Below, in pieces: positions 28,022-33,329 of a stretch of DNA of 64,000 bases. The notes beneath the pieces were generated by a model that was given only the letters and a program-made list of their open reading frames with translations, did no database searches and was not told where the DNA came from. Where the stretch lies: positions 186,001 to 250,000 of the forward strand of contig PAJV01000058.1 in NCBI GenBank assembly GCA_002706765.1, given 5' to 3'. Origin of the DNA: Gimesia sp. Lineage in GTDB: Bacteria; Planctomycetota; Planctomycetia; Planctomycetales; Planctomycetaceae. Position 1 is the first letter of the stretch. Each line of letters starts with the position of its first letter. Position numbers and translations under genes: made by a program.

Positions 28022-29461
28022 ATGACCGAAAAGCCCACACTGACAACAACCGGCGGCGCCCCCGTTCCCGACAATCAGAATTCCATCACTGCCGGACCGC
28101 GTGGACCGCTGCTGATGCAGGATTACCAGTTAATTGAAAAACTGGCGCACCAGAATCGGGAGCGGATTGCAGAGCGGGTCGTGCATGCCAAAGGCTGGGG
28201 CGCGCATGGGACACTGACGATCGAGAACGACATCAGTAAATATACGAAAGCCAAAGTGCTGCAGCCAGGCACCAGAACGGAGATGATCGCCCGCTTCTCC
28301 ACAGTCGCCGGCGAAGCAGGAGCCGCCGATGCCGAACGCGATGTGCGCGGCTTCGCCCTCAAATTTTATACCGAAGAAGGCAACTGGGATCTGGTCGGCA
28401 ACAATACGCCGGTCTTCTTCGTCCGCGATGCCTACAAATTCCCCGATTTCATCCACACTCAGAAACGTCATCCCAAAACCAACCTGCGTTCTCCCACCGC
28501 CATGTGGGATTTCTGGTCCCTCTCCCCTGAATCACTGCACCAGGTGACCATCCTGTTTTCTGACCGGGGTCTACCGGTGGGCGTTCGTAACATGAACGGT
28601 TACGGCAGTCACACTTACAGTCTCATCAACCACAATAATGAACGGTTCTGGGTAAAGTTCCACTTCAAAACTCAGCAGGGTCACAAGCACTGGACCAATG
28701 CGGAAGCAGAACAGGTCGTGGGAAAAACTCGCGAGAGCACTCAGGAGGATCTGTTCTATGCGATTGAAAAAGGGGAGTTTCCCCGATGGAAGATGCAGGT
28801 TCAGATCATGCCGGAAACGGATGCCGACCTCACGCCCTACAACCCATTTGACCTGACCAAAGTCTGGCCGCACGGCGATTACCCCTTAATTGACGTAGGG
28901 ACAATGGAACTGAATCGCAATCCGGAAAACTACTTTGCGGAAATCGAACAGGCGGCCTTCTCCCCTTCGAATAAAGTACCCGGCATCGGTTTTTCACCCG
29001 ATAAAATGCTGCAGGCCCGCGTCTTCGCCTATGCCGACGCCCACCGGCACCGGATTGGTACCCACTACGAAGCACTGCCGGTAAACGAACCAAAGTGCCC
29101 CGTGCATCACTATCACAAAGACGGCGCGATGCACTTCAAATCAAACGGCTGCCCCGTGGACGCCTACTACGAACCGAACTCCTTCAACGGCCCCGTAGAG
29201 AAACCGGATGTCGCCGAACCACCGTTGAAAATATCCGGAGACGCCGCCCGCTACGATCATCGGGAAGGTAATGACGATTACTCACAGCCTCGCGCGCTGT
29301 TTAACCTGTTCGACGACGGACAGAAAGCCCGGCTGTTCTCCAACATCGCCGCCGCCATGCAGGGCGTGCCCGAAGAAATTGTAGAACGCCAGCTCAAACA
29401 CTTCGAGCAGATTGACCCCGCCTATTCTACAGGAGTGCGAGCAGCGTTGAATGCTTCCTGA
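28022..29461 (+). CDS. katA: Haem catalase, small-subunit clade
   Basis: Splits hydrogen peroxide into water and oxygen. Distal haem residues are visible: H55 in [12 protein letters not shown] and the Asn of [11 protein letters not shown]; the proximal ligand is Y337 in [16 protein letters not shown]. The length of 479 residues fits the small-subunit (clade 3) KatA enzymes, which often bind NADPH. No signal peptide, so cytoplasmic. It lies downstream of oxyR on the same strand and AAGGA precedes the ATG. The structured repeat at 27913-28003 lies in its leader. Confidence 0.95.
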
Positions 29462-29484
29462 TCGTGAGCAGACTTAAAAATAGA

Positions 29485-29528
29485 AACTTCCCTCCCGACA
29501 GTCTCCCGTCGGAAGGGGAGTTTTCTTT
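29485..29528 (+). terminator. Intrinsic terminator after catalase
   Basis: An imperfect hairpin of about 15 bp (AACTTCCCTCCCGAC with GTCGGAAGGGGAGTT, several G-U pairs) is followed by TTTTCTTT, 24 bp after the catalase stop. It lies just before the convergent RNA ligase gene's stop and may serve both. Confidence 0.75.
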
Positions 29529-29533
29529 GCCTA

Positions 29534-30310
29534 CTACTTTTTACCAGCCGCCCGTTTCTGATGACGCTGGTAATCTTCGTAGCGAATCTTAGCGATCCGA
29601 CTGCGGTCTGCAGTACGCACTACCAGACCTTCAGGTCTGCCGCCAGCAGAATCGTCCAGGGCAACCAGCGTCGTGGGAATCATGGACTCCAGCCACGCAT
29701 GCGTTTCTACAATCGTCGCTGGCAGCGTCTTCCGGATTTCAAGTCGGGGCGTCAACTCCAGTTGCAGTGAATCGATCAGTTCGATCAATTCCTGTTCCCG
29801 CAGAAATGACTGCCCGCCATTCTCGCGCCAGGCAGCGATCGCTTCACGACTGGCGTCCAGATGCTCCAACGCGATGCGGCTCACGTCGAACACACGATAG
29901 CCAAACTCGCGCTGGCTCGTGTACTGTTTCGCAGCCGCGGTTGTTTTACCACCATATGTTTCCAGATAGACGACTGTGATGACATCAGCGGGTGTAAACA
30001 CACCGTCAACAATCCGTTCAGCGGTCTGTTTGAGCGTATCTACGATGCCCAGCGCGGGATTGTGAATCAAGTCGCCCCGCGCATACAGCAGTTCTTCACG
30101 GCTGCCGATCAGGTAGCATCCATCCGGCATCAGAATGATCCGGCTGTTGGTGCCATCCACTTTTTCTGTCACAATCAGTGTCTGTCCATCAAAGTTGACA
30201 TGTTCTGCCAGCAGCGCCCCCCGTTCCCCCAGTGCATGGTACGTGGGGATTGAAGGGTACTTTGTCGCGCTGTTCAGTTTTCCCAGATCCAGATCTCTTG
30301 TTGATCGCAT
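29534..30310 (-). CDS. ATP-dependent RNA ligase (Rnl2-like nucleotidyltransferase)
   Basis: Motif I TEKVDGTN places the adenylated lysine at K50. GSREELLY, VYLETYGGKT, motif IV EGLVVR (E227) and motif V AKIR (K241) complete the covalent nucleotidyltransferase set. At 258 residues it is a compact catalytic module without a large C-terminal domain. Such enzymes seal nicks in RNA, including cleaved tRNA. It lies 47 bp downstream of the last of 13 tRNA genes on the same strand, so tRNA repair is the natural inference. A longer frame starting at 30415 would overlap tRNA-Ala; the ATG at 30310 with AGGAG seven bases upstream is the true start. Confidence 0.85.
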   Translation of the reverse strand: MRSTRDLDLGKLNSATKYPSIPTYHALGERGALLAEHVNFDGQTLIVTEKVDGTNSRIILMPDGCYLIGSREELLYARGDLIHNPALGIVDTLKQTAERIVDGVFTPADVITVVYLETYGGKTTAAAKQYTSQREFGYRVFDVSRIALEHLDASREAIAAWRENGGQSFLREQELIELIDSLQLELTPRLEIRKTLPATIVETHAWLESMIPTTLVALDDSAGGRPEGLVVRTADRSRIAKIRYEDYQRHQKRAAGKK

Positions 30311-30357
30311 TATTACTCCTGTTATACAGAATATGATTCTGTGTTCTATGCATAAAG

Positions 30358-30430
30358 TGGACCGGATGGGAATCGAACCCAACACACCGACTTTGCAAGA
30401 GTCAGTCGCCCCCAAGGTACATGCCAGCCC
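30358..30430 (-). tRNA. tRNA-Ala (TGC)
   Basis: The acceptor stem is GGGCTGG with CCGGTCC and discriminator A, and the anticodon loop is CTTGCAA. No CCA is encoded. The T stem has one mismatched pair. It is the last tRNA of the array, next to the RNA ligase gene. Confidence 0.88.
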
Positions 30431-30455
30431 TTAAAATAATAAACCGTCGAATCAA

Positions 30456-30524
30456 TAGCAGAGCCCGGAATCGAACCGGGTGCACCAACCTTATGAGAGT
30501 CGGCCGGGCACCTGCCCCTCTGCG
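30456..30524 (-). tRNA. tRNA-Met-like (CAT), shortened
   Basis: The anticodon loop is CTCATAA on a stem with two G-U pairs, and the T arm is intact (CCCGG, TTCGATT, CCGGG). The acceptor is CGCAGAG with CTCTGCT, leaving a C-U mismatch at the end. It is only about 69 bases long because the D arm is cut down. The three G-C pairs of an initiator anticodon stem are absent. The CAT anticodon could also be an Ile2 tRNA modified by TilS, which is encoded at 62319. Confidence 0.75.
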
Positions 30525-30535
30525 TCAGTAAAAAG

Positions 30536-30618
30536 TAGCCAAGGCGAGATTCGAACTCGCAATCCCTGAGGGAACGACTTTCTGAGAGTCGCGCGTCTAC
30601 CAGTTTCGCCACTTGGCC
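30536..30618 (-). tRNA. tRNA-Leu (CAG)
   Basis: A class II tRNA with a long variable arm; acceptor GGCCAAG with CTTGGCT (G-U at the end), anticodon loop CTCAGAA, T loop TTCGAAT. No encoded CCA. Confidence 0.9.
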
Positions 30619-30629
30619 ATGTTGATTTT

Positions 30630-30679
30630 AATAAAAGGTGTCAGGAACCTTATATTTAAGGTTCCTGACACCTTTTATT
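30630..30679. repeat. Long palindrome in tRNA array, copy 1
   Basis: Perfect 23-bp arms around the four-base loop TATT; the core is AGGTGTCAGGAACCTTA. It lies between tRNA-Leu(CAG) and tRNA-Tyr. Near-identical palindromes lie at 30977-31032 and 31795-31846. Confidence 0.93.
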
Positions 30680-30695
30680 TCATGTTGATATATAA

Positions 30696-30777
30696 TGCGT
30701 CGGGACGGAGTTGAACCGCCACAGCTATTAAGCGGGTGGGTTACAGCCACCGGGGCTCGCCAATGCCCAGCCAACGC
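30696..30777 (-). tRNA. tRNA-Tyr (GTA)
   Basis: Acceptor GCGTTGG with CCGACGC, discriminator A; anticodon arm GGTGG, CTGTAAC, CCACC; a long variable arm as expected for bacterial Tyr. No CCA encoded. Confidence 0.92.
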
Positions 30778-30811
30778 GTGTTTTTATTTTCTGTTTATTG
30801 AATTCTGACAG

Positions 30812-30889
30812 TGACACGGGCGGGAGTCGAACCCGCAGACAATCACGAAATTTTAAGTTTCGTTGCTTTACCAGTTTGCATACCGTGTC
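30812..30889 (-). tRNA. tRNA-Leu (TAA)
   Basis: Acceptor GACACGG with CCGTGTC, discriminator A; anticodon arm CGAAA, CTTAAAA, TTTCG; T arm with GCGGG and CCCGC. The variable arm is short for Leu. No CCA encoded. Confidence 0.9.
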
Positions 30890-30899
30890 TGACGTTAAG

Positions 30900-30974
30900 C
30901 GTCCCCGATGGGATTTGAACCCACGACCTTCTGCGTGACAGGCAGACGAGCACTCCGAACTGCTCCACGAGGAC
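30900..30974 (-). tRNA. tRNA-Asp (GTC)
   Basis: Acceptor GTCCTCG with CGGGGAC and discriminator G; anticodon arm TCTGC, CTGTCAC, GCAGA. No CCA encoded. A palindromic repeat starts three bases upstream. Confidence 0.92.
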
Positions 30975-30976
30975 GT

Positions 30977-31032
30977 GAGAATAAAAGGTGTCAGGAACCT
31001 TAAATATAAGGTTCCTGACACCTTTTATTCTC
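30977..31032. repeat. Long palindrome in tRNA array, copy 2
   Basis: Perfect 26-bp arms around the loop AATA, with the same core as copies 1 and 3. The last 17 bp (31016-31032) are duplicated directly at 31033-31049, so one half-arm is repeated in tandem. Confidence 0.93.
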
Positions 31033-31049
31033 TGACACCTTTTATTCTC
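31033..31049. repeat. Tandem duplicate of palindrome end
   Basis: An exact 17-bp copy of 31016-31032, lying between the palindrome and tRNA-Trp. It suggests slippage or incomplete excision and re-insertion of the palindrome. Confidence 0.9.
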
Positions 31050-31052
31050 AAG

Positions 31053-31123
31053 CACGCCCCCAGGGATTTGAACCCCGATCGACCGGGTTGGAGCCGGTCA
31101 TGCTGCCGTTACACCAGAGGCGT
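31053..31123 (-). tRNA. tRNA-Trp (CCA anticodon)
   Basis: Acceptor ACGCCTC with GGGGCGT, discriminator G; anticodon arm ACCGG, CTCCAAC, CCGGT; T loop TTCAAAT. No 3' CCA encoded. Confidence 0.9.
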
Positions 31124-31159
31124 CTGTTTTGAAATGGAAGACGATGACTTCCATCAAGC

Positions 31160-31232
31160 TGCGGTGGCAGGAATCGAACCTGCGTCAAGACGATTAACAG
31201 TCGCCCACCCGTACCAGCACGAGTACCACCGC
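31160..31232 (-). tRNA. tRNA-Asn (GTT)
   Basis: Acceptor GCGGTGG with CCACCGC, discriminator A; anticodon loop CTGTTAA on a GGCGA/TCGTC stem; T arm GCAGG and CCTGC. No CCA encoded. Confidence 0.9.
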
Positions 31233-31272
31233 ATTATTATTTTTCTCTTACATCTTCCCGTATTTGGCATAG

Positions 31273-31348
31273 TCAGGGTGACTGGATTTGAACCAGCGAT
31301 CTCGTGCTTCCAAGGCACGCGGTTTAGACCAGACTTCCCCACACCCTG
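31273..31348 (-). tRNA. tRNA-Pro (TGG)
   Basis: Acceptor CAGGGTG with CACCCTG, discriminator A; anticodon arm CGTGC, CTTGGAA, GCACG; T arm CTGG and CCAG. No CCA encoded. Confidence 0.92.
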
Positions 31349-31357
31349 TTTAAAAAG

Positions 31358-31428
31358 AGCGCCCAGCGGGAGTCGAACCCGCACTTCCGCCATGGCAAGA
31401 CAGCAGGCTGCCGCTACATCATGGGCGC
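31358..31428 (-). tRNA. tRNA-Gly (GCC)
   Basis: Acceptor GCGCCCA with TGGGCGC, discriminator T; anticodon loop TTGCCAT on a stem with two G-U pairs; T arm GCGGG and CCCGC. No CCA encoded. Confidence 0.88.
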
Positions 31429-31459
31429 GAATCAGTTTCATTTGATTTAATTTTGCAAG

Positions 31460-31532
31460 AGCACCAGGTGGGATTTGAACCCACATGACCGCGTTACAAA
31501 GGCGACGTCTTACCAGGTTAGACGACCGGTGC
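31460..31532 (-). tRNA. tRNA-Thr (TGT)
   Basis: Acceptor GCACCGG with CTGGTGC, discriminator T; anticodon loop TTTGTAA on a stem with one mismatch next to the loop; T arm GTGGG and CCCAC. No CCA encoded. Confidence 0.85.
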
Positions 31533-31552
31533 GTTTGATCTCACAATAAAAA

Positions 31553-31624
31553 TAGGGCCGGAGGGAATCGAACCCCCACCTGACTGGTTAAAAGCCAGTA
31601 ATGCAACCGTTACACCACGACCCC
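31553..31624 (-). tRNA. tRNA-Lys (TTT)
   Basis: Acceptor GGGGTCG with CGGCCCT (G-U end pair), discriminator A; anticodon arm ACTGG, CTTTTAA, CCAGT. No CCA encoded. Confidence 0.9.
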
Positions 31625-31695
31625 GAATGGAAGTGGGGGGCGTGCGTTTAGAACAAAATAATGTAACCATAATTGAAGCTCCTTAAATGTTTTAA

Positions 31696-31768
31696 TGACC
31701 CGTGTGGGAGTCGAACCCGACCTGCCCGGCTTGAGAAACCGGTGACCTCACCCGAAGTCGAACGGGCC
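31696..31768 (-). tRNA. tRNA-Glu (CTC)
   Basis: Acceptor GGCCCGT with ACGGGTC, discriminator A; anticodon loop TTCTCAA on CCGGT/GCCGG. The T stem holds only three pairs (GGG/CCC), two outer pairs being mismatched. It is the first tRNA of the array. No CCA encoded. Confidence 0.82.
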
Positions 31769-31794
31769 TTGTTTCAGTACGTACCTGGATCGGG

Positions 31795-31846
31795 GGATAA
31801 AAGGTGTCAGGAACCTTATAATTAAGGTTCCTGACACCTTTTATCC
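31795..31846. repeat. Long palindrome in tRNA array, copy 3
   Basis: Perfect 24-bp arms around the loop TAAT, with the same core as the other two copies. It lies just upstream of tRNA-Glu and so marks the 5' boundary of the array. Confidence 0.93.
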
Positions 31847-31864
31847 ACCGTTTGATGGAGACGC

Positions 31865-31894
31865 AAAAAAACCCGCTGCCTGATGACACCGGGT
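31865..31894 (-). terminator. Probable intrinsic terminator upstream of tRNA array
   Basis: On the minus strand, ACCCG pairs with CGGGT around an inner TGTC/GGCA helix with loop ATCA, followed by seven T. It would stop read-through from the SHC-repeat gene before the tRNA array and would help isolate the array as its own unit. Confidence 0.55.
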
Positions 31895-32231
31895 GATTTC
31901 AGAATTCTAAAGATCAACCAGATGTCAACAGCGCAAATTCAGCGCGAGCGTATCCTCAGCCGGGAGGCCGGCCTCGAGATTGCCTGCGGGTTTGGTACTT
32001 AAACTGATTGTCAACAGATAAGAAATCATGGAAGATATAATTCCGTTTTTTAAATGTGATTAAAATTAAGCCAACGTGTCTGTCAGATGAACTGACTGTT
32101 AACTAAGAGGCGCTTCAATAGAAACGGTTCGCTGTTTTTTCGAGAAATATCCACATCTTTTCAGATGCGCAATGAAACGAATTTATTTCGTTCTTGATAC
32201 ATTTCCTGCTGAATAATCTGAAAATAAGTAT
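31895..32231. other. Intergenic region, nothing recognised
   Basis: An AT-rich gap after the SHC-repeat gene. No convincing reading frame, hairpin or repeat was seen. The tRNA array promoter could lie anywhere from here to 31790. Confidence 0.3.
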
Positions 32232-33329
32232 TCAGCGCATCGCCAGCAAAGGCACATTGCCATAAGGAAACTGCAGCACAATCAACGCCATTGCCGTCGC
32301 GTATTCATCACCAATATTCGCATCGTGCCAGTCACCTCTGGTTGACTGTTGTGATAAAAGTTCGTCGCGGACCATTGGATACCAGCGATCCCATTCCGGT
32401 TTGCCCGCCTGCCAGGCGGCGTGCGTCGCGTAGAATCGCCCATAGAAATGGTACTCCGCCAGTTGTCCCGGCGAGAGTTCCAGCGGGGGATGTGGCTGCT
32501 GCAGATATTCGCGCCCGTGCTGTACTGTAGGGTCCCGTTCCAGGCCGGCACAGGTGAGTGCCACCACCGCGGCCGCCGAACGGGGAAACAGCGATTCGGG
32601 AGGATCGTCCAGACGATAACGGAATCCGCCATCCTCGTTCTGAGCCTGTTTGAGAAAATCGACACTCCGCTCGATCGCTTCCCGCGGCACACCAACGCCG
32701 GCCTGACGCGCTGAAAAGAGTGCCAGCATCTGGCAGGTGGTGATCGATACATCCGCGTCTTTGGGATCGGAAGTATAACTCCAGCCCCCCTGCTCGTTCT
32801 GTAGATTCAAAATCAGTTGAGTGGCTGCTTTCAACGCTTCACGAACGCGCGGATCAAACGACTCGCCGAAGACCTGCCCCAGGAACATCGTCGCGTAGCC
32901 ATGACCATATAACGGCGCATGCGTGCGAACGTCTGCTTCGACGATGAACCCGTTCTCCTGTGATCGGCCCAGCAGATAACGAATGCATTCCTGAATGGAA
33001 CGCCGATACGAGCCGGTCATGCCGCGGTGTGCCAGAAACGCCGTCCCCGCCAATGCGCAGACGCCGACATTCCGCGCATATGAACCGCTGCTGCCGAACC
33101 CGCCATCTGTCACCTGCCGGGATGCGAGCCATTTCAAGCCGCGTTCGATGGCCGCTTGTGTCTGTGGAGTGACAAATTCCGGAGGCGCAAGTAAGCCCGC
33201 CTGCAGTGGAGTACCACGCCACCAGTTGCGCAGCGCGGCCAATGTGCTGATAACCGCCGCGCCTAATGCACCGCGGCGGGAAAACTCCGGTTCTATTTTC
33301 GAGGCAGATTCGTCTTTCGACATTCTCAT
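32232..33329 (-). CDS. Exported squalene/hopene cyclase-repeat protein
   Basis: A twin-arginine-like start (SRRGALGAAVISTLAAL) precedes repeated alpha-toroid motifs of the prenyltransferase/squalene-oxidase repeat: GLKWLASRQVTDGGFGSSG, NEQGGWSYTSDPKDADVS and AQNEDGGFRYRLDDPP. The protein has 365 residues, about half of a true squalene-hopene cyclase, and lacks a DXDD acid motif, so terpene cyclisation is unlikely. Related planctomycete proteins are annotated only by this repeat. It may bind a ligand or peptide (inference). It is divergent from the NHL protein gene. Confidence 0.82.
   Translation of the reverse strand: MRMSKDESASKIEPEFSRRGALGAAVISTLAALRNWWRGTPLQAGLLAPPEFVTPQTQAAIERGLKWLASRQVTDGGFGSSGSYARNVGVCALAGTAFLAHRGMTGSYRRSIQECIRYLLGRSQENGFIVEADVRTHAPLYGHGYATMFLGQVFGESFDPRVREALKAATQLILNLQNEQGGWSYTSDPKDADVSITTCQMLALFSARQAGVGVPREAIERSVDFLKQAQNEDGGFRYRLDDPPESLFPRSAAAVVALTCAGLERDPTVQHGREYLQQPHPPLELSPGQLAEYHFYGRFYATHAAWQAGKPEWDRWYPMVRDELLSQQSTRGDWHDANIGDEYATAMALIVLQFPYGNVPLLAMR

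Follow-up and report, generated by a model that had tools for sequence, protein, structure and literature searches.

What is a second set of tRNA genes, followed by an RNA ligase gene, doing in a planctomycete chromosome, and what decides when it is transcribed? The question is raised by a stretch of 64,000 nucleotides (nt) from Gimesia sp. (GCA_002706765.1, contig PAJV01000058.1, positions 186,001-250,000 of the forward strand). This whole stretch is called the window, and coordinates are positions within it; genomes, contigs, and loci bear G, C, and L numbers. The arrangement of a tRNA array and then an RNA ligase, as stated in a preliminary description of the interval 29534..31846, was confirmed. 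The key element was found upstream of that interval, at 31865-32029. It consists of a leader open reading frame (ORF), an intrinsic terminator, and a strand that can compete with the terminator. I propose, at a probability of roughly 0.7, that the locus serves as an emergency tRNA operon and is controlled by a translation-coupled transcription attenuator. The putative operon would run in the order of leader ORF, alternative antiterminator and terminator, tRNA array, RNA ligase, and a second terminator.

The leader ORF has 34 codons in all 15 main arrays of the genus with enough upstream sequence, and the distance from its stop to the terminator pattern is 29-30 nt in the 11 genus arrays measured. 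This layout was also seen ahead of the small arrays of the genus and of arrays in other genera, at 38 of the 39 loci examined; the 39th begins at a contig end. In the terminator search, two of the 39 loci gave none at first, namely G034m, which lies at a contig start, and G087, where an unrelated tRNA came first and which was added later. Five of the 38 leaders have no assigned stop (G031, G039, G037, G025m, and G038m), either for want of sequence or because a different pairing was picked by the automatic duplex search; in G031 and G039, the ORF, the stop, and the antiterminator are the same as in their relatives. The antiterminator strand GACATCTGG overlaps the leader stop codon and pairs with CCCGGTGTC. 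Because its complement is the 5′ arm of the terminator, only one of the two helices, terminator or antiterminator, can form at a time.

Both helices covary. In 26 leaders, 92.7% of the cells of the terminator helix and 82.7% of those of the antiterminator helix are paired, while slid controls of the two gave 29-51%. The covariation score of each helix was reached by none of 500 shuffles, with the caveat that relatedness among sequences can by itself lift a score above such shuffles, even where no structure exists. Matched changes are found in G162 (arm CTCGG, strand CCGAG), in G152 (arm GATGT, strand ACAT), and in the small array of G035 (arm GGTGC, strand GCACC). In folding predictions, transcripts truncated ahead of the 3′ arm form the antiterminator core (five or more of six pairs) in 23 of 26 cases. 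Masking of the stop region, which mimics a terminating ribosome, lets the terminator (seven or more of ten pairs) form in 24 of 26. Rfam 15 gave no match at the gathering score for the leader, and its 12 sub-gathering matches in the leader region lie mostly on a palindromic repeat described below.

Might the leader ORF instead be an unrelated small-protein gene and the hairpin its insulating terminator, with the array promoter downstream of the terminator? In the main arrays of the genus, 91-240 nt lie between the terminator and the first called tRNA, which leaves room for a promoter, and a conserved GTACGTACT stands just before tRNA-Glu in six of eight aligned main arrays. However, just 10-19 nt separate the terminator from the first called tRNA in 14 of the genus's 15 small arrays, which leaves no such room, and the stop-overlapping strand covaries with the terminator arm. 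I therefore regard simple insulation as unlikely.

Does the attenuator recur where it did not serve for its own definition? A covariance model (R1) was built from 26 leaders. It matches the window at 31864-31951 with 74.6 bits, the window leader being a training sequence. At E ≤ 0.01, R1 matched 95 of the 170 genomes of the family; at E ≤ 1e-4, it matched 22 of 392 genomes of the phylum, seven of which belong to two other families in the class. Forty non-training matches, mostly the strongest, were fetched. Where at least 300 nt of downstream sequence was available, a tRNA on the same strand followed within 500 nt in every case (37 of 37); the other three matches lie at contig ends. The matches in the other families likewise precede tRNAs at all eight loci of the seven genomes. 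On L071, L072, and seven phage loci, R1 gave no convincing match (best phage E 0.35).

The last codons of the leader are also conserved. In an earlier leader set, Leu is kept in 30 of 33 and Arg in 27 of 33, and the stops are TGA (24), TAA (6), and TAG (3). In 48 non-training leaders, an ATG-started ORF of at least 16 codons always precedes the stop. The third-last codon encodes Leu in 46 (CTG, TTG, CTC, CTA, or CTT), the second-last encodes Arg in 44 (CGC 37, AGG 5, CGT 1, CGA 1), and 47 leaders end in TGA and one in TAA. The synonymous exchange in this Leu-Arg-X-stop sequence, including AGG for CGC, favors translation over RNA structure alone.

These parts suggest the following mechanism. 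In normal translation, the ribosome ending the leader ORF would sit on the stop codon and cover the antiterminator strand. The terminator hairpin would then form and keep the array silent. If tRNA cleavage, tRNA starvation, or ribosome-targeting antibiotics made ribosomes stall within the leader or not load at all, the uncovered antiterminator strand would pair with the terminator 5′ arm, and RNA polymerase coming from a presumed promoter would read through. The read-through would yield a second, sequence-divergent tRNA set, which is perhaps nuclease-resistant. The ligase would be made together with the array tRNAs and could reseal broken RNAs. Its co-production is suggested by the terminator scan: on the minus strand, a terminator-like site was found after the ligase gene but none in the gap separating the gene from the last tRNA.

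The upstream attenuator points to a trigger broader than anticodon nucleases, namely failing translation. As the composition of the leaders varies widely, a general sensor fits better than an amino-acid sensor. I lean towards the view that the Leu-Arg-X-stop leader, with its stop-overlapping antiterminator, is a general sensor of ribosome failure that governs emergency tRNA sets throughout one class of planctomycetes. The Leu-Arg-X-stop sequence may itself be read by the ribosome, which would pause as it terminates. Genes for RNA repair, the ligase among them, may have been recruited behind this element.

Several observations weigh against the proposed attenuator operon. No R1 match was found in 75 of the 170 family genomes, and several weak matches near E 0.01 span the terminator half only. 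R1 spans the last leader codons, so that its matches are partly selected for Leu-Arg-X-stop. Reading through 15 codons without a stop is also possible in the two alternative frames (41 and 33 of the 48 leaders, as against 48 of 48 in frame), so that an open frame by itself says little about coding. The seventh antiterminator pair is missing in 21 of 26 rows. The unmasked full leader favors the terminator (six or more terminator pairs in 22 of 26), while in four of 26 the terminator folds only when the stop region is masked. Since the terminator usually wins in the full leader, the switch needs kinetic, co-transcriptional folding. The leaders listed have no run of one control codon, unlike those of classical amino-acid attenuators, although such a run would be unnecessary for a general sensor of translation. 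A simple sigma-70 scan of the minus strand of 29450-32300 gave no promoter-like site. Of three palindromic repeats in the locus, one lies between the terminator and tRNA-Glu and two lie inside the array, and they might shorten transcripts. Lastly, the ligase is present in only eight of the 170 family genomes, and opposite-strand genes split off the main array in three of these eight; thus, co-transcription is not general.

Is the array itself maintained? It was found in all 17 genus genomes, syntenic between ordinary genes. In the stretches examined, its order is Glu-Lys-Thr-Gly-Pro-Asn-Trp-Leu-Asp-Leu-Tyr-Leu-Met, with single genomes missing some genes or calls. Its presence throughout the genus in the same order excludes chance. 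Selection on the tRNA stems is evident from their sequences. Across the genus, standard pairs make up 2697 of 2744 stem cells (98.3%) in 13 tRNA types. Compensatory types occur at 38 of 270 stem pairs, as against 5.7 with slid partners; these figures cover ARAGORN-called genes only, a bias favoring pairing. The weakened stems reported in the preliminary description are real for single genes but are not a feature of the array across the genus. Its count of thirteen tRNAs on one strand stands for twelve, which ARAGORN called on the minus strand at 30456-31768 with the anticodons listed there. The thirteenth, Ala-TGC, is weak and uncalled; its TGC anticodon is visible in the sequence at about 30359-30430, and an ARAGORN-called Ala-TGC occurs in the same part of the array in G026 and G027. 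Nine of the 13 reach the Rfam gathering score in the window scan.

Are these tRNAs needed for ordinary translation? The genome is 7.9 Mb in size, and a search with RF00005, in which 150 of 313 candidates were scored, gave at least 58 matches over the cut-off: 10 in the window array, four in a second array on contig C71, and 44 elsewhere. The preliminary description had asked whether the anticodons are duplicated elsewhere in the genome, and a housekeeping copy indeed exists for 11 of the 12 called array anticodons, Glu-CTC being the only exception. The identity between array and housekeeping tRNAs is 59-76%; of 16 such comparisons over both arrays, 10 show a difference in the 7-nt anticodon loop. 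These results support the view that the array tRNAs are supplementary. Their lack of an encoded CCA, on the other hand, is not specific to the array; among the housekeeping ends listed, only Tyr, Ala, Ile, and Leu-TAG end in CCA. A tRNA array unit is defined by about 20 or more tRNAs at high density. The window array, with 12-13 tRNAs, is smaller, while G162 (30) and G049 (40) reach this size; high density (12 tRNAs in 1.3 kb) and redundancy with the housekeeping set are seen in the window as well.

The second, small array (G000 contig C71, L043 8883-10081) comprises Phe, Glu-TTC, Ser-TGA, Ser-GCT, and His as called by ARAGORN. It has its own leader and terminator and ends at an HNH endonuclease gene. 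Together, the C71 and window arrays resemble one larger cassette, as in G049.

It may be asked whether the array is decaying, horizontally acquired tRNA junk, as the available part of PMC4807772 suggests for planctomycete clusters. The covariance scores of the array tRNAs are low compared with those of the housekeeping tRNAs, one window tRNA has no ARAGORN call, the gene at the Lys position has an unassigned anticodon in four genus genomes, and genes have been lost, for example Leu-TAG in the window. Decay is nevertheless hard to reconcile with the array's genus-wide presence and order, with stems maintained by compensatory changes, and with a regulatory leader conserved in many genera. I consider it improbable.

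Where does the ligase belong? The ligase is an accessory of the array, since all 17 genus genomes have the array but only five have the ligase. In the other 12, two of which are assemblies less than 80% complete, an array was found without a ligase. In all eight ligase-bearing genomes of the family, the window included, an array tRNA lies within 1.6 kb of the ligase. The ligase directly follows the array in the window, at a measured 48 nt from the Ala element (47 bp in the preliminary description). In G024, one same-strand gene intervenes. In G029, G030, and G037, the ligase stands behind tRNA-Met and two further genes, and two opposite-strand genes separate the main array from this tRNA-Met and the ligase. 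In G152, G162 (30 tRNAs), and G049 (40 tRNAs), it lies inside or near the end of a longer array. The two are thus not one obligate cassette. A search for arrays with a PF09414 ligase in other planctomycetes and in phages, as proposed in the preliminary description, was positive for those eight family genomes and for five of 44 viral loci. HNH was also tried as a cassette gene and rejected; it occurs in 165 of the 170 family genomes and is hence housekeeping in general. HNH copies do stand among the tRNAs in G049, G082, G087, and G043. In G049, a DUF4291 gene lies within the 40-tRNA array beside the ligase, and a Band 7/slipin gene lies just after the array (L066 7282-7878 and 10868-11974). A slipin gene also follows the array in G082 (L253).

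The ligase has the motifs and the fold of an Rnl2-like nucleotidyltransferase. Its structure was predicted with a pLDDT (predicted local distance difference test) of 94.4, and the best Foldseek matches were 2hvr, 1s68, and 2hvq, with an E of 8.6e-9 to T4 Rnl2. The closest solved structures by fold are T4 RNA ligase 2, the Naegleria RNA ligase, and trypanosome REL1. It was this fold search that resolved the identity: a PDB sequence search gave no match with the single sequence and weak matches only with a profile. E49-K50, G53, E117, F141-D142, E227-G228, and K241, which belong to the nucleotidyltransferase motifs, are invariant in the 62 rows of the family alignment, the window ligase being one of them. 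K50, E227, and K241, described as intact from the window ligase alone, are thus kept throughout the family. T4 Rnl2 has a C-terminal domain. In contrast, the window ligase chain ends 17 residues past K241; it has 258 residues as against 317-319 in the full-length T4 hits, and its identity to T4 RNA ligase 2 is about 15% despite the common fold. The ligase also appears to be under selection, as shown by a ratio of nonsynonymous to synonymous substitution rates (dN/dS) of 0.10-0.16 in 10 genus pairs. It could reseal broken RNAs, its presumed substrates. Unlike the ligase of the Pnkp1-Rnl-Hen1 repair system, it lies outside the Hen1/Pnkp operon, which is found elsewhere in the genome with a ligase of its own. 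This operon, on C77 (L049 8553-16540), encodes a NIF-type phosphatase, the second PF09414 protein of the genome, an HD/AAA_33 protein, Hen1 (PF12623), and Pnkp (PF16542). RtcB is encoded on C78.

Does the ligase make the locus a T4-like repair cassette, in which it would reseal cleaved tRNAs and cleavage-resistant array tRNAs would help the cell to survive anticodon nucleases? The proximity of array and ligase in all eight ligase-bearing family genomes fits this idea, and so do the array anticodon loops, 10 of 16 of which depart from their housekeeping counterpart, although these differences may be drift. Some phage relatives of the ligase adjoin tRNAs (Streptomyces phage JustBecause, and L154 with 30 tRNAs), but only five of the 44 viral ligase loci have at least three same-strand tRNAs within 5 kb. 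The genome encodes an AAA_13 protein matching the candidate defense family PDC-S06, and AAA_13 is the family of PrrC and RloC. The Hen1/Pnkp operon could heal ends. However, no end-healing enzyme of the T4 Prr type is present among the six scanned window neighbors, and the ligase has no match in the padloc defense library; in relatives, end-healing neighbors were judged by reading ORFs only. In 12 of the 17 genus genomes, the array was found and the ligase was not. A repair cassette is therefore possible but rather doubtful, and the attenuator operon remains my preferred reading. The AAA_13 protein has 880 residues (L257 325-2967, G000 contig C10; PDC-S06 E = 2.4e-199). In phage JustBecause (L067 10326-14413), the ligase relative stands after tRNA genes and before a Ro-like RNA-binding protein. 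In the viral contig L154, the ligase lies inside the 30-tRNA run, with 11 tRNAs upstream and 19 downstream.

The ligase family was collected as 80 loci from a scan of genome contigs and 44 from a scan of viral contigs, many of the loci being short. Besides the five viral loci, three of the 80 genome loci, all planctomycete, have at least three same-strand tRNAs within 5 kb. A shared neighbor gene was sought among five ORFs on either side, and none was found beyond small related groups, the largest cluster having seven loci. The array link is thus a planctomycete and partly a phage trait. A ligase tree was built, omitting loci below 39% identity, the short proteins L139, L143, L146, and L186, and L064 and L066, which are the same places as L070 and L073. 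Eleven rows form one clade (100/98), planctomycete except for one unclassified metagenome-assembled genome, and nine of them have arrays. The neighboring clade is that of chromosomal Nostoc ligases, with support of 90/75, which falls short of the star threshold. The phage ligases lie dispersed over other parts of the tree, the largest group with Actinomycetota.

The preliminary description also considered a captured phage module. Phage relatives of the ligase do exist, the best annotated one at 42% identity. Recent capture is unsupported, however, since the array is syntenic in the chromosomes of the genus, the ligase clade is distinct from the phage ligases, and the six scanned neighbors are catalase, LysR regulator, cyclase-like, NHL repeat, glyoxalase-like, and planctomycete cytochrome proteins. 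I give this explanation very little credence.

The features of the locus are collected in Table 1. The three palindromic repeats are near-identical (AAAAGGTGTCAGGAACCTTA...), and more copies exist across the genome and the genus. They look like miniature inverted-repeat transposable elements or repetitive extragenic palindromic elements. They share a GGTGTC/GACACC core with the attenuator, probably by chance.

Table 1. Features of the tRNA array and ligase locus (positions within the window)
Feature	Position	Strand	Basis or remark
Leader ORF, 34 codons + TGA, MISYLLTISLSTKPAGNLEAGLPAEDTLALNLRC	31925..32029	-	ORF reading; Leu-Arg-X-stop kept in other genera
Antiterminator strand GACATCTGG, overlaps leader stop codon	31918..31926	-	Pairs with terminator 5′ arm
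Intrinsic terminator ACCCGGTGTC-ATCA-GGCAGCGGGT + T run	31865..31894	-	Pairing over 26 sequences
Palindromic repeat, 50 nt, between terminator and first tRNA	31796..31845	.	Repeat comparison
tRNA-Glu(CTC)	31696..31768	-	ARAGORN
tRNA-Lys(TTT)	31553..31624	-	ARAGORN + Rfam
tRNA-Thr(TGT)	31459..31532	-	ARAGORN + Rfam
tRNA-Gly(GCC)	31357..31428	-	ARAGORN + Rfam
tRNA-Pro(TGG)	31272..31348	-	ARAGORN + Rfam
tRNA-Asn(GTT)	31158..31233	-	ARAGORN + Rfam
tRNA-Trp(CCA)	31052..31123	-	ARAGORN + Rfam
Palindromic repeat, 50 nt, in place of tRNA-Leu(TAG) of most relatives	30980..31029	.	
tRNA-Asp(GTC)	30899..30974	-	ARAGORN + Rfam
tRNA-Leu(TAA)	30811..30889	-	ARAGORN + Rfam
tRNA-Tyr(GTA)	30696..30777	-	ARAGORN; below Rfam gathering
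Palindromic repeat, Tyr/Leu(CAG) gap	30630..30679	.	
tRNA-Leu(CAG)	30535..30618	-	ARAGORN + Rfam
tRNA-Met(CAT)	30456..30524	-	ARAGORN; below Rfam gathering
tRNA-Ala(TGC), probable, weak	30359..30430	-	19.5 bits as tRNA-Sec, below gathering; no ARAGORN call
ATP-dependent RNA ligase, 258 aa, Rnl2-like nucleotidyltransferase fold	29534..30310	-	ATG start, PF09414 E=2.8e-13
Terminator-like hairpin 3′ of ligase	29490..29517	-	Terminator scan

How does the locus compare with known systems? Classical leader-peptide attenuators (trp, his, and pheS type) have a leader ORF, an intrinsic terminator, and a competing antiterminator. The window leader shares all three, its ORF being putatively translated. 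It differs in preceding tRNA genes, in having no control-codon run, and in an antiterminator that overlaps the stop after Leu-Arg-X. The proposed leader-peptide attenuation of tRNA arrays, with this unusual stop-overlapping strand and Leu-Arg-X-stop, would be the novelty here. Neither the attenuator nor the link between ligase and array was found in the available parts of the literature searched (including PMC6409571, PMC4833913, and PMC10264068), a search that left most subscription papers outside.

The tRNA array units of mycobacteria and of their phages and plasmids are likewise redundant tRNA sets with an HNH gene inside, as far as the available parts of PMC5966550 and PMC12803027 show. 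According to the same sources, the mycobacterial units are carried by mobile elements or are strain-variable, whereas the planctomycete array is chromosomal and syntenic in the genus. The word "ligase" is absent from the main text of both papers. The "degenerate tRNA gene clusters" of planctomycetes, which the available part of PMC4807772 describes as partially degraded and possibly dispensable, are very likely the same kind of object as the window array. They were called degenerate there, while a conserved leader and apparent selection on the tRNA stems were found here. A translation-reading switch would give the expression of tRNA arrays a specific, testable trigger and would explain the silence of the spare set, and R1 may serve as a marker for finding such operons.

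The closest parallel may be the trn operon of Anabaena. The available part of PMC10272220 describes 26 supplementary tRNAs that are normally repressed and are induced by translation-targeting antibiotics. The repressor TrcR acts on the trn operon, RtcB, an HNH gene, and slipin, and its published operator sites are ATACTACACTTGTATTAC and TGTAGTAT (PMC10272220). No ATP-dependent ligase is named as part of this regulon in the available text. I found TrcR-like palindromes upstream of cyanobacterial ligase relatives: at five of 11 loci they outscored every one of the 118 control ORF starts taken from these loci, two pairs being near-copies. They lie 30-60 nt before the ligase start at L074, L075, L079, L141, and L143, all in Nostoc-type cyanobacteria. 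The best site is that of L143, a partial ligase match. Nothing was found before the ligase at L077, L086, and L092, and little at L076. The ligase-bearing Nostoc genomes G172, G173, and G174 have tRNA clusters elsewhere, with at least five, seven, and seven matches, respectively, within 2.4-3.4 kb. The planctomycete G170 has at least four tRNA matches within 2.3 kb elsewhere and none at the ligase locus.

The TrcR-like operators would tie several cyanobacterial ligase relatives to the published translation-stress regulon. Together with the ligase behind the planctomycete arrays, they would make RNA repair and spare tRNAs parts of a single stress response in both phyla. The planctomycete arrays resemble the Anabaena operon, as far as it is described in the available text, in being supplementary and, in some cases (G049 and G082), in having HNH and slipin neighbors. 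In contrast, the control is exerted by a DNA-binding repressor in Anabaena and would be exerted by a leader ORF with an RNA attenuator here. It seems fairly probable that the planctomycete leader is an RNA-based counterpart of the cyanobacterial TrcR control.

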